From positions 1 to 31,364 of IMG/VR virus record IMGVR_UViG_3300017786_000075: a stretch of DNA of 31,364 nucleotides; one strand, 5' to 3'. Source of the DNA: a virus. How positions within the stretch are numbered: the stretch's first letter is position 1; each line of letters starts with the position of its first letter. Under the pieces are notes generated by a model, which was not told the DNA's origin, did not search any database, and was given only the letters and a program-made list of their open reading frames with translations. The translations under genes were made by a program, and so were the position numbers. Positions 19,930-31,364 of the stretch are shown piece by piece.

Positions 19930-20292
19930 TTAAGCAGGTATTGCTAATTTGTCTATATCAAAATTTACACTAACGCCACATCCACAACTGCTTTTTGCGT
20001 TAGGGTTTATAAGTTCAAACATAGATCCCATAATATCTTTTTTATAATCAATTACTGTACCAAACAAAAACATTAAACTTGCTCCGCCTATTACAAATGT
20101 ACAACCTGTATCTGTTTTAAATACTTCGTCATCATCTAGTAATTCGTCTGGTTTTGCGTAAGTTCCCCATTCGTATTCGAATCCTGCACAACCACCACCT
20201 TTCATGTTTAGCGTAACTGCATAAACTTCATTTTCCTTGCAAATAGTGTCAATTTGCTGTTTTGCGGCATCTGTAAGTGTACAAATAGTCAT
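19930..20292 (-). CDS. iscA: A-type Fe-S cluster carrier (IscA/HesB family), 120 residues
   Basis: A-type carriers bind an Fe-S cluster or iron through three cysteines and pass it to target proteins. All three are present: Cys35 (G-G-G-C-A-G-F) and Cys103/Cys105 (S-C-G-C-G), close to the canonical positions, and the length is normal for the family. Start ATG 20292 has AAAGGAG at good spacing and a late box (GATAAATA) 20 bases before the ATG, so this gene appears to be transcribed late with the virion genes downstream. HesB-like genes are known from marine T4-like phages. The 3' end of an iscU gene lies at the other end of this window, so the phage carries both scaffold and carrier. Which apoprotein it serves is unknown. 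Confidence 0.85.
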   Translation of the reverse strand: MTICTLTDAAKQQIDTICKENEVYAVTLNMKGGGCAGFEYEWGTYAKPDELLDDDEVFKTDTGCTFVIGGASLMFLFGTVIDYKKDIMGSMFELINPNAKSSCGCGVSVNFDIDKLAIPA

Positions 20293-30365: not shown

Positions 30366-30394
30366 GTTTGCCTCTATTGCCTAATTATATATAC

Positions 30395-30422
30395 ATTATA
30401 GCATAATTATTTACTTTGTCAA
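30395..30422 (-). promoter_or_regulatory. Sigma-70-like promoter TTGACA-16-TATAAT for the ligase
   Basis: -35 TTGACA at 30417-30422 and -10 TATAAT at 30395-30400, spacer 16. The predicted start is about 22 bases before the ligase ATG. It begins 6 bases after the CCA end of tRNA-Arg. Confidence 0.8.
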
Positions 30423-30428
30423 GCATTT

Positions 30429-30505
30429 TGGTGGACCCGAAGAGATTCGAACTCCTGACCTCCGGTTCCGCAAACCGGCGTTCTATCCTGCTGAACTACG
30501 GGTCC
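30429..30505 (-). tRNA. tRNA-Arg, anticodon GCG (reads CGC/CGU)
   Basis: The full cloverleaf is present: acceptor GGACCCG/CGGGTCC, D-stem GTTC/GAAC with A20 (an Arg identity base), anticodon stem CCGGT/ACCGG with loop TTGCGGA, T-loop TTCGAAT, discriminator A and encoded CCA. A G at position 34 is unusual for this box in bacteria, which normally use ACG with inosine. It lies 4 bases after a structured RNA and shares its promoter. Confidence 0.9.
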
Positions 30506-30509
30506 ATGT

Positions 30510-30598
30510 ATAATAAGGGCCGACACTTGGTACGCAACTGTTCGGTGTCTGGTTTAATGCAACGTTGCCTAGGACTAACCATTCACAACCCTTATTAT
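30510..30598 (-). ncRNA. Candidate structured RNA, 89 nt, directly before tRNA-Arg
   Basis: A perfect 10-bp closing stem (AUAAUAAGGG at 30589-30598 with CCCUUAUUAU at 30510-30519) encloses arms GGUU/AACC and GACAC/GUGUC. GCAAC (30564-30568) can pair with GUUGC either next to it or at 30534-30538, so a pseudoknot is possible. The sigma-70-like promoter at 30605-30633 puts its start site at about 30598, the first base of the closing stem. The 3' end abuts tRNA-Arg, where RNase P would cut. T4 also carries stable non-tRNA RNAs in its tRNA cluster. It is not a normal tRNA fold. A 28-codon ORF also runs through it. Confidence 0.55.
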
Positions 30599-30604
30599 CT
30601 TTAC

Positions 30605-30633
30605 AGTATATAATAGTTTATGAACTTTGTCAA
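30605..30633 (-). promoter_or_regulatory. Sigma-70-like promoter TTGACA-17-TATACT for the structured RNA and tRNA-Arg
   Basis: -35 TTGACA at 30628-30633 and -10 TATACT at 30605-30610, spacer 17. It starts 6 bases after the CCA end of tRNA-Cys, so the Arg tRNA is separated from the other four tRNAs. Confidence 0.8.
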
Positions 30634-30639
30634 GTGTTT

Positions 30640-30713
30640 TGGACACGTAGGCCGGAATCGAACCGGCATAAACGGAGTTGCAGTCCGTCGCATAGCCATT
30701 CTGCCACTACGTG
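30640..30713 (-). tRNA. tRNA-Cys, anticodon GCA
   Basis: Acceptor CACGTAG/CTACGTG, anticodon stem ACGGA/TCCGT with loop CTGCAAC, discriminator U73 (a Cys identity base) and encoded CCA. It is 2 bases from tRNA-Pro, so it is cotranscribed and cut from one precursor. Confidence 0.93.
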
Positions 30714-30715
30714 AT

Positions 30716-30793
30716 TGGTCGGGGATGCAAGATTCGAACTTGCGATCTTCTGCTCCCAAAGCAGACGGATTAACCAGACTTTCCTAATCCCCG
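30716..30793 (-). tRNA. tRNA-Pro, anticodon TGG
   Basis: Acceptor CGGGGAT/ATCCCCG with the C1-G72 pair typical of bacterial tRNA-Pro, anticodon stem TCTGC/GCAGA with loop TTTGGGA, T-loop TTCGAAT, A73 and encoded CCA. Confidence 0.93.
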
Positions 30794-30795
30794 TT

Positions 30796-30870
30796 TGGTG
30801 CGCCCGGAAGGATTCGAACCTCCAACTTAACCGTTATGAGCGGTTGGTTCTACCATTGAACTACAAGCGC
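30796..30870 (-). tRNA. tRNA with CAT anticodon (Ile2 reading AUA, or elongator Met)
   Basis: Acceptor GCGCTTG/CGGGCGC with two G-U pairs, anticodon stem AACCG/CGGTT with loop CTCATAA, A73, encoded CCA. The normal G1-C72 pair excludes initiator tRNA. Ile2 needs C34 changed to lysidine by host TilS; sequence alone does not decide. Three AUA codons in the leader ORF upstream favour Ile2 if that ORF is a true sensor. Confidence 0.9.
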
Positions 30871-30876
30871 CAAATT

Positions 30877-30950
30877 TGGCACAGGTGAAGGGAATCGAAC
30901 CCCTATCTTCAGTTTTGGAGACTGACGTGTTACCATTACACCACACCCAT
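30877..30950 (-). tRNA. tRNA-Trp, anticodon CCA
   Basis: Acceptor ATGGGTG/CACCTGT with A1-U72 and two G-U pairs, D-stem GTGT/ACAC, anticodon stem TCAGT/ACTGA with loop CTCCAAA, G73 (Trp identity) and encoded CCA. Its first base follows directly after the T-run of the terminator at 30951-30987. Confidence 0.92.
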
Positions 30951-30987
30951 AAAAAAAGCCCCTAATAAAATTAATTACTAGGGGCTT
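30951..30987 (-). terminator. Intrinsic terminator abutting tRNA-Trp
   Basis: A 13-bp stem AAGCCCCTAGTAA/TTATTAGGGGCTT (one G-U) with loop TTAATT, followed by 7 T (two of them in the stem). It ends exactly where tRNA-Trp begins, so the four-tRNA operon is only made when transcription passes it. Its 5' arm CCCC can also pair with GGGG in the leader ORF upstream. Confidence 0.88.
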
Positions 30988-31005
30988 GTCTAAAATAACT
31001 TTTGT

Positions 31006-31080
31006 TTATAAAGTCATGTCAAAACATACCCCGGGACCTGGTGGCCAACATATTATACATATTGTGTTAGTTTTGATCAT
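31006..31080 (-). CDS. 24-codon leader ORF of the tRNA operon
   Basis: ATG 31080 has AAAGGA 8 bases upstream and lies about 20 bases after the predicted transcript start. Codons 7-14 are ATA TGT ATA ATA TGT TGG (Ile Cys Ile Ile Cys Trp) then CCA CCA (Pro Pro), followed by another Pro (CCC, 16) and Cys (TGT, 19). These are the amino acids of the four tRNAs encoded just downstream; there is no Arg codon, and tRNA-Arg is in a separate unit. The stop lies 18 bases before the terminator stem, a suitable distance for attenuation. The product could instead be a small Cys-rich peptide in its own right. No homologue is known to me. Confidence 0.6.
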   Translation of the reverse strand: MIKTNTICIICWPPGPGVCFDMTL

Positions 31081-31105
31081 GTTAAAATTCCTTTATTGTC
31101 TTTAC

Positions 31106-31134
31106 AGTATACTACAGTTATTTAGTAGTGTCAA
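31106..31134 (-). promoter_or_regulatory. Sigma-70-like promoter TTGACA-17-TATACT for the leader ORF and tRNA operon
   Basis: -35 TTGACA at 31129-31134 and -10 TATACT at 31106-31111, spacer 17. The predicted start is near 31099. The -35 lies in the 3' end of iscU. It is the only promoter I can see for the Trp-CAU-Pro-Cys tRNAs. Confidence 0.82.
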
Positions 31135-31364
31135 CCACTTTTTTAGATTGATAATCTTTTATTGCAGATTTAATTGCATCTTCGGCTAATACACTGCAAT
31201 GTATTTTAACTGGAGGTAATGCAAGTTCATCTGCAAGATCCATATTTTTTATTTCACCTGCTTTATCAAGTGTCATGCCTTTAACCATTGTAGTTAATAA
31301 ACTTGAACTTGCTATTGCACTACCGCAACCGTAAGTTTTAAATTTTGCATCTTTAATGATTCCA
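31118..31364 (-). CDS. iscU: IscU Fe-S cluster scaffold, C-terminal 81 residues (runs off window)
   Basis: IscU builds 2Fe-2S clusters from sulfur given by IscS and passes them on. The visible part holds T-Y-G-C-G-S-A-I-A-S-S (second active Cys), the E-I-K-N-x-D-(I/L)-A-x-E-L segment, and L-P-P-V-K-I-H-C-S (the HscA-chaperone site plus the third active Cys), so it should be functional; the first Cys is outside the window. It ends with a short extra tail V-V-D-T-T-K. The next genes are phage tRNAs, so it belongs to the phage. Together with the A-type carrier at 19930 it suggests that the virus supports Fe-S cluster supply during infection. Confidence 0.9.
   Translation of the reverse strand, partial: GIIKDAKFKTYGCGSAIASSSLLTTMVKGMTLDKAGEIKNMDLADELALPPVKIHCSVLAEDAIKSAIKDYQSKKVVDTTK

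Follow-up and report, generated by a model that had tools for sequence, protein, structure and literature searches.

Architecture of the leader and its tRNA operon

The window analysed here is the whole of the 31,364-base virus record IMG/VR IMGVR_UViG_3300017786_000075. Four features lie on the minus strand at its right end: part of an iscU/NifU-like gene, a tRNA operon, a solitary tRNA-Arg and the gene for an ATP-dependent DNA ligase. The operon is preceded by a sigma70-type promoter (TTGACA-N17-TATACT, 31106..31134, minus, 11/12 matches) and by a Shine-Dalgarno motif found in the sequence (AAAGGA, 31089..31094, minus), with an ATG 8 nt downstream. This ATG opens a leader peptide ORF of 24 codons, MIKTNTICIICWPPGPGVCFDMTL (31006..31080, minus), which is present in the ORF listing and has homologous leader ORFs in relatives. 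Codons 7-14, ATA TGT ATA ATA TGT TGG CCA CCA (31039..31062, minus), are named the sensor codons on the basis of the codon/tRNA covariation described below.

Three regions of this strand are involved in alternative pairing. Region 1, TCAAAAC (31070..31076), is the 5' arm of a protector hairpin and pairs with 31025-31019, as supported by folds and pair counts. Region 2, GGGGTATGTTTTGACATGACTTT (31010..31032, with GGGG at 31032-31029), is common to the protector and an antiterminator, and region 3, AAAAGTTATTTTAGACAAGCCCC (30981..31003), serves as both the 3' arm of the antiterminator and the 5' arm of the terminator; these two regions were defined by folds. The intrinsic terminator (30951..30987, minus), formed by a 13-pair stem (30987-30956) and a T-run to 30951, abuts tRNA-Trp(CCA) (30877..30950, ARAGORN and Rfam). 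Further downstream on the minus strand, ARAGORN identified a tRNA(CAU) (30796..30870), most likely a tRNA-Ile2 reading AUA as judged from the AUA codons of CAU-only operons, followed by tRNA-Pro(UGG) (30716..30793), tRNA-Cys(GCA) (30640..30713) and, behind a second promoter (30633-30605), tRNA-Arg(GCG) (30505-30429).

The first-pass annotation, made from sequence alone, had proposed this promoter, the AAAGGA motif, the 24-codon ORF, the terminator and the Trp, CAU, Pro and Cys tRNAs, all of which held at these positions. Its reading of codons 7-14 held as well, with all eight read by the downstream tRNAs if the CAU tRNA is Ile2, and so did the separate promoter of tRNA-Arg. It had further assumed that such codons make up about 8% of usage and that a run of eight has a chance of order 1e-9. 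The codons for the Trp, Ile2, Pro and Cys tRNAs account for 7.57% of the 9,568 codons in 19 window ORFs, so the assumed share was sound, and the chance of such a run at a fixed site is about 1.1e-9, a post hoc figure for one site. The fold of the leader RNA beats 200/200 dinucleotide shuffles (z -3.3).

Another structured element with its own promoter lies 5' of tRNA-Arg (30517-30600, minus; fold z -2.4), where an inverted repeat, ATAATAAGGG...CCCTTATTAT, encloses about 60 nt. A relative, L003, retains this stem via two compensating changes (GTAATAAAGG...CCTTTATTAC), and the overlapping 28-codon ORF loses its ATG there; this favours an RNA over a second leader peptide. It has no Rfam match at gathering. 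The phage also carries two Fe-S assembly genes, one for the IscU/NifU-like scaffold (31118-31363) and one for a 120-aa protein (19930-20292) that we take to be of the HesB/IscA type (PHROGs gives no function).

Conservation of the leader among relatives

Searches with the ligase and IscU gave at least 159 loci, and many of these share the promoter, the Shine-Dalgarno motif, a short ORF, the GGGG motif and a terminator 5' of a tRNA-Trp-led cluster. Pattern scans of IMG/VR for the core motif returned 88, 23, 3 and 4 stretches, some of which overlap the earlier loci; the core pattern had no match in GTDB genomes, and two further viral patterns gave no hit either. The R1 search covered 88 loci and then 86 others, many of them known carriers, with the remaining loci not included; among the first 88, the sole real match was L067, a cut-off element.

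Elements were counted as distinct when they differed in peptide plus tRNA set. The final set held 71 elements, which after removal of 4 on short contigs gave 58 distinct ones, and 57 after removal of L130, a false positive without any tRNA that is still inside the relaxed 58-leader counts. The covariation analysis used 63 of 67 elements (L201, L214 and L257 were too short and L207 had no start), representing 54 distinct leaders, and 53 of these 54 were aligned, with L179 omitted for containing N. The 57 elements, on IMG/VR contigs of uncultured phages, had to contain the core motif, the terminator and a leader ORF that includes a Trp codon. These features are therefore no evidence by themselves; tRNAs were not a criterion. 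The first downstream tRNA identified by ARAGORN is Trp in 57/57 distinct elements. TTGAC occurs in the 90 nt preceding the ORF in 55/57, and a clear Shine-Dalgarno motif (AGGA, GGAG, AAGG or GGAA before the ORF) is found in 53/57 and missing from 4/57. This conservation meets the attenuator criterion of an ORF with a ribosome-binding motif between the promoter and the first gene, though translation is inferred and not shown.

Two leader classes can be distinguished. Class A leaders start with ATG and follow the pattern MIKTNTxxIxCWPP..GMS, mostly with a TGA stop; class B leaders start with GTG and mostly read VLRTxQQSSxQNWCPP..GMS with a TAA stop. The ORF frame relative to GGGGTATG is common to 53/57 elements, from which the window departs: in the window, L001 and L211 the frame is shifted after the Pro codons, so that the window ORF runs past the usual TGA to a TAA at 31008-31006. 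L018, L022 and L184 are also off the common frame, and the ORFs of L018 and L022 stop at a TAG just 5' of GGGG.

In 11 loci, some of them near-identical, tRNA-Trp occurs without a leader and the promoter lies directly 5' of the tRNA (L019, L020, L021, L028, L037, L039, L044, L046, L049, L080 and L109). The leader is thus not required for tRNA-Trp in every lineage, and with the promoter placed next to the tRNA these lineages differ from the others by gain or loss of the attenuator.

Between the attenuator terminator and tRNA-Trp, about 85-90 nt of additional structured RNA were observed at L048:4697-4787, with closing stem ACTACACTA/TAGTGTAGT and fold z -2.5; similar RNAs occur in L051, L061, L060 and L224, and this type has no Rfam match above threshold. 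Some candidate relatives were rejected. The match in Pelagibacter phage HTVC010P covers the terminator hairpin only, with no such leader before tRNAs nearby, and the record named 'Acinetobacter phage MD-2021a' resembles a bacterial isc operon. Phage C48C1 (Kyanoviridae) has iscU; the 8.2 kb examined showed no tRNA feature and the R1 search no match. A tblastn search with a neighbouring protein gave matches in phages of several proteobacteria, at about 30-34% identity among the hits inspected.

Competing hairpins and ribosome geometry

Folding of 13 elements revealed three competing hairpins, the protector, the antiterminator and the terminator. In the protector, TCAAGAC/TCAAAAC of the first codons pairs with GTCTTGA/GTTTTGA 3' of GGGG, and CCACC pairs with the G run. 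The antiterminator consists of GGGGTATGTCTTGACRTGACTTT paired with AAAGTTATTTTAGACAAGCCCC. Across the alignment, 95.3% of cells are paired for the terminator, 91.6% for the antiterminator and 85.1% for the protector, against at most 66.1%, 60.6% and 48.1% in slid controls. Double-sided changes in the terminator and the protector exceed all 500 shuffles (protector, 15 cells, 0/500). Compensatory changes in the antiterminator, whose bases serve several roles, are few (6 cells) and were equalled by 155/500 shuffles.

The protector is present in 57/57 nascent RNAs folded up to region 2, and the terminator in 56/57 full RNAs. With a ribosome stalled on Trp, for which we assumed Trp in the A site and a leading edge at +12, the antiterminator forms in 56/57 elements with a median of -20.5 kcal/mol, and the terminator median is -19.1 kcal/mol; in L196 a ribosome waiting at Trp would hide some of GGGG. 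These folding predictions meet the attenuator criterion that terminator and antiterminator be mutually exclusive. In untranslated RNA before the 3' arm of the terminator is made, the antiterminator is the minimum-energy fold in 52/57, so that untranslated RNA would terminate only if the order of folding lets the protector form first.

For a ribosome at the stop codon, the footprint was assumed to extend 17 nt upstream and 11 nt downstream of the first A-site base. Such a ribosome covers GGGG in 56/57 elements. The exception is the window itself, where the rest of region 2 is covered and GGGG is exposed behind the ribosome; it can pair with region 3 until the 3' arm of the terminator is made, after which the terminator wins. 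The window may leak more than its relatives because of this exposure. Apart from the window, and within the assumed footprint, the criterion that a stalled ribosome frees region 2 and a ribosome at the stop covers it is met.

Leader codons follow the tRNA set of each operon

The association between leader codons and downstream tRNAs was spotted by eye and tested afterwards, so all p-values are post hoc, and the sequences are related. The codon zone was defined as six codons before to five after Trp. Among the 54 distinct leaders, AUA is found in 13/13 operons with an Ile2(CAU) or Ile(UAU) tRNA vs 5/41 without (p = 8e-9), Ser UCN codons in 10/12 with a Ser tRNA vs 6/42 without (p = 2e-5), and Gly before Trp in 3/3 with a Gly tRNA vs 0/51 without (p = 4e-5). 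Cys codons occur in all 31 operons with tRNA-Cys and in 16/23 of the others (p = 0.001). For Gln the counts are 7/7 vs 14/47 (p = 7e-4), confounded by most class B leaders having Gln regardless. No signal was obtained from these leaders for the presence of Pro codons (23/23 with tRNA-Pro vs 31/31 without), for Lys (1/2 vs 11/52) or for Arg(ACG) (0/1 vs 7/53). The relaxed 58-leader set, which includes L130, agrees (AUA 14/14 vs 7/44); for Gly the 54-leader counts are preferred, as the zone in the relaxed set takes in fixed GGG codons.

Two controls confirmed the excess of matched codons. When tRNA sets were permuted within class, 114.2 decoded codons were expected (sd 5.6), and the 155 observed were reached by 0/5000 permutations. 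In the frame control, the ORF frame gave 155 matched codons vs 111.5 expected (sd 5.5); neither of the remaining frames showed an excess (11 matched codons vs 22.3 expected in one, 11 vs 13.4 in the other). In nearest-relative contrasts, the partner was picked by the flank outside the codons and differed in tRNA, with some pairs up to 37% different. The concordant/discordant/tied contrasts were 12/0/1 for Ile, 13/2/8 for Cys, 9/1/2 for Ser, 7/0/0 for Gln and 3/0/0 for Gly; Pro contrasts showed no trend (6/5/12). The covariation is thus shown in counts, frame controls and contrasts, and the attenuator criterion that regulatory codons match the downstream function is met, without a signal from the presence of Pro codons.

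Individual leaders illustrate the rewriting. L198 (Trp-Pro-Ser-Cys) contains ...TNITCWPSRKW, L236 (Trp-Pro-Cys-Ser-Ile) ...TSIICWPSRKW, L206 (Trp-Pro-Gly-Ser-CAU-Ile) ...TSIIGWPSRKW and L197 (Trp-CAU-Pro-Gly-Ser) ...IGIIYWPSRKW. L265 (Trp-Cys-Ile) and L260 (Trp-Ser-Gln-Cys-Ile) are one residue apart, CWCPP becoming CWCPS. Other cases were seen after the rule had been formed. L277 (Trp-Tyr-Cys, ..YYRWC..) reads TAT TAT CGT TGG TGC CTA TCA, in which both Tyr codons, Trp and Cys are matched and Arg, Leu and Ser are not; L177 (Trp-CAU) has ATA, and L275 repeats L018 (Trp-Cys, CW). TAT occupies -4 and -1 in L199 and L203 (Trp-Tyr), a weak case because it also stands there in leaders that lack a Tyr tRNA (e.g. 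L232). Matching is incomplete: all 8 Trp-only operons keep WP and 6/8 keep CWP, L162 keeps three AUA codons with only Trp and Cys tRNAs visible, and Ser codons appear in L264, which has no Ser tRNA.

Isoacceptor resolution and identity of the CAU tRNA

The match extends to individual isoacceptors. Where the operon encodes Ile2(CAU) or Ile(UAU), Ile codons near Trp comprise 32 AUA, 0 AUU and 0 AUC, vs 7 AUA, 32 AUU and 2 AUC where no AUA-reading tRNA is encoded. Ser codons are UCA, UCG or UCU in 25/26 cases with tRNA-Ser(UGA) vs 13/30 without.

The first-pass annotation had left open whether the CAU tRNA is Ile2 or Met. In each of the five scored CAU-only operons the codon zone holds between one and three AUA codons but lacks AUG, from which we infer that the CAU tRNA of the window is most likely an AUA-reading Ile2. 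C is found at position 4 in 6/7 distinct CAU tRNAs, with A in the exception, L177; C4 is part of the recognition site of lysidine synthetase.

The UAU-anticodon tRNA is 92-94 nt long with an apparent long variable arm, which is unusual for an isoleucine tRNA. It is carried by L003, L185, L206, L213, L224, L236, L260 and L265, and leader AUA codons track it, though the synthetase that charges it is unclear.

Spacing between the Trp codon and GGGG

We infer from the geometry that the distance from Trp to GGGG sets which codons can be sensed. Leaders were called stall-competent when a stall at the codon after Trp would leave GGGG free. The codon after Trp is decoded by the operon's own tRNA in 23/29 stall-competent vs 5/25 non-competent leaders (p = 1.4e-5). 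In class A, the Trp-to-GGGT distance is at least 16 nt in 12/16 leaders with tRNA-Pro vs 5/25 without (p = 7e-4), and nearest-relative contrasts of class A spacing gave 8 for, 1 against and 7 ties. No difference in this distance was seen in class B (6/7 vs 6/6). For the window, the antiterminator reaches -18.7 kcal/mol with a stall at Trp, -18.5 kcal/mol at the first Pro and -8.2 kcal/mol at the second Pro; seven of the eight codons look sensed, since the stall at the second Pro gives a weak antiterminator.

A proposed self-limiting tRNA operon and its alternatives

These observations are likely explained by a ribosome-mediated transcription attenuator that makes the phage tRNA operon self-limiting. 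There are no expression data, and stalling, termination, read-through and the physiological trigger are all inferred. In the proposed mechanism, RNA polymerase would start at 31134-31106 and a ribosome would follow on the leader ORF. A shortfall of tRNA-Trp, Ile2, Cys or Pro would make the ribosome wait within codons 7-14, breaking the protector hairpin and leaving GGGG of region 2 free; region 2 would then pair with region 3, no terminator would form and the tRNA genes would be transcribed. When these tRNAs are plentiful, the ribosome would reach the stop and cover region 2 (in the case of the window, the greater part without GGGG), the terminator would form, and transcription would end before the first tRNA. 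What the leader reads would be isoacceptors and not amino acids, and evolution would rewrite its codons as the tRNA set changes.

Several claims of the first-pass annotation bear on this mechanism. The attenuation reading is supported by the relatives, and the proposed change of leader codons with the tRNA set was borne out. Its GGGG/CCCC antiterminator also held, forming in 56/57 elements with a ribosome on Trp. Its statement that the sensor codons are all read by the downstream tRNAs carries over to the relatives only in part, as Trp-only leaders keep WP, and the evidence for Pro sensing lies in spacing and not in the presence of the codons. The trigger it named, host shortage or a tRNA-cutting defence, remains an inference, with phage demand as a further possibility.

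A sensor of amino-acid starvation, reading the charging of Trp, Cys, Pro and Ile tRNAs like trpL or ilvL with the tRNA output incidental, would be mechanically identical. Uncharged and missing tRNAs both stall ribosomes, and such a sensor could explain the Cys codons in 16/23 operons without tRNA-Cys. Against it stand the switch from AUU to AUA in operons that encode an AUA-reading tRNA (32/0/0 vs 7/32/2 for AUA/AUU/AUC) and the preference for UCA, UCG and UCU in Ser(UGA) operons (25/26 vs 13/30 elsewhere). This match to isoacceptors makes the explanation unlikely, because an amino-acid sensor would have no need to favour the isoacceptor encoded downstream. Alternatively, the leader could respond to slow translation or the loss of ribosomes in general, with the Trp and Pro codons as only a fixed pause site. 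This would fit WP in 8/8 Trp-only operons and the lack of a signal from Pro presence; CCACC pairs with the G run of the protector, so structure alone could conserve it. This alternative does not predict the covariation of Ile, Ser, Gly and Cys codons or the effect of spacing, and we regard it as very improbable.

The terminator could also be a plain one that insulates the tRNA genes from transcription coming from upstream or marks a processing site, the ORF being incidental and inherited with the operon. It is indeed strong and directly 5' of the tRNAs, and related operons share leaders by descent. However, the promoter sits between iscU and the terminator, the frame (53/57) and the antiterminator are conserved, and the codon matching is specific to the frame and tracks tRNA changes between nearest relatives, which together leave this explanation almost no room.

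Attenuation by tRNA supply is thus the reading we prefer. We also lean towards a bolder version, in which the element is a virus-encoded tRNA thermostat with a reprogrammable leader that checks the downstream tRNAs isoacceptor by isoacceptor. Only a shortage of these tRNAs, whether through low host supply, demand from late genes or a host defence that cuts tRNAs, would release the tRNA genes, and phages swapping tRNA genes would rewrite the sensor codons and the spacing to match. If true, this would be the first case, within the literature searched, of tRNA genes under ribosome-mediated attenuation. It would imply that tRNA supply is limiting in infection often enough to merit sensing, and the leader would be a readable record of the tRNAs that each phage monitors. 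The leader codons support the assignment of the CAU tRNA as AUA-reading, and the leader may offer a ready-made isoacceptor-specific biosensor.

Comparison with known regulatory systems

Phage tRNAs replace missing host tRNAs and counter tRNA-cutting defences (PMC10264068, PMC11555353), and their expression level matters, as rescue was promoter-dependent (PMC11555353). Regulation of tRNA genes by tRNA supply is not described in the relevant sections of these papers, and the string 'attenuat' is absent from both. A leader-peptide attenuator of tRNA genes had no precedent in the open-licence PubMed Central literature searched, and none was found in the relevant sections of PMC10264068, PMC11555353, PMC8079986, PMC4046766 and PMC4117421. 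T-box riboswitches likewise sense the state of tRNA and act by antitermination; unlike the present leader they have no translated peptide, and the tRNA binds the RNA. No T-box match was found in Rfam at gathering, nor at E up to 5 over 30380-31150. The known Rfam amino-acid leaders (Thr, His, Phe and the trpB motif) gave sub-threshold scores only, such as 17.4 vs 55 for Thr_leader and 24.4 vs 49 for His_leader.

Leader-peptide attenuators of aminoacyl-tRNA synthetase genes, described for leuS, alaS, trpS and thrS of Streptomyces lividans (PMC8079986), resemble the phage leader in restoring the supply of aminoacyl-tRNA rather than of an amino acid. The pheST genes are also under leader-peptide attenuation. 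These leaders differ in being cellular, in having a synthetase as output and in addressing one amino acid each, and no tRNA-gene output appears in the relevant sections of PMC8079986. The amino-acid attenuators (trpL, hisL, pheL, the multivalent thrL and the ilv leaders) share a short ORF with regulatory codons, alternative 1:2, 2:3 and 3:4 hairpins, an intrinsic terminator and several codon kinds per leader. Unlike them, the present leader is found in phages, has as its targets the tRNAs that read its own codons, chooses codons at the level of isoacceptors and is rewritten as the tRNA set changes. The proposed mechanism is a known one of the trpL/ilvL type, and what is new within the literature searched is its tRNA-gene target, its isoacceptor resolution and its reprogramming with the tRNA set.
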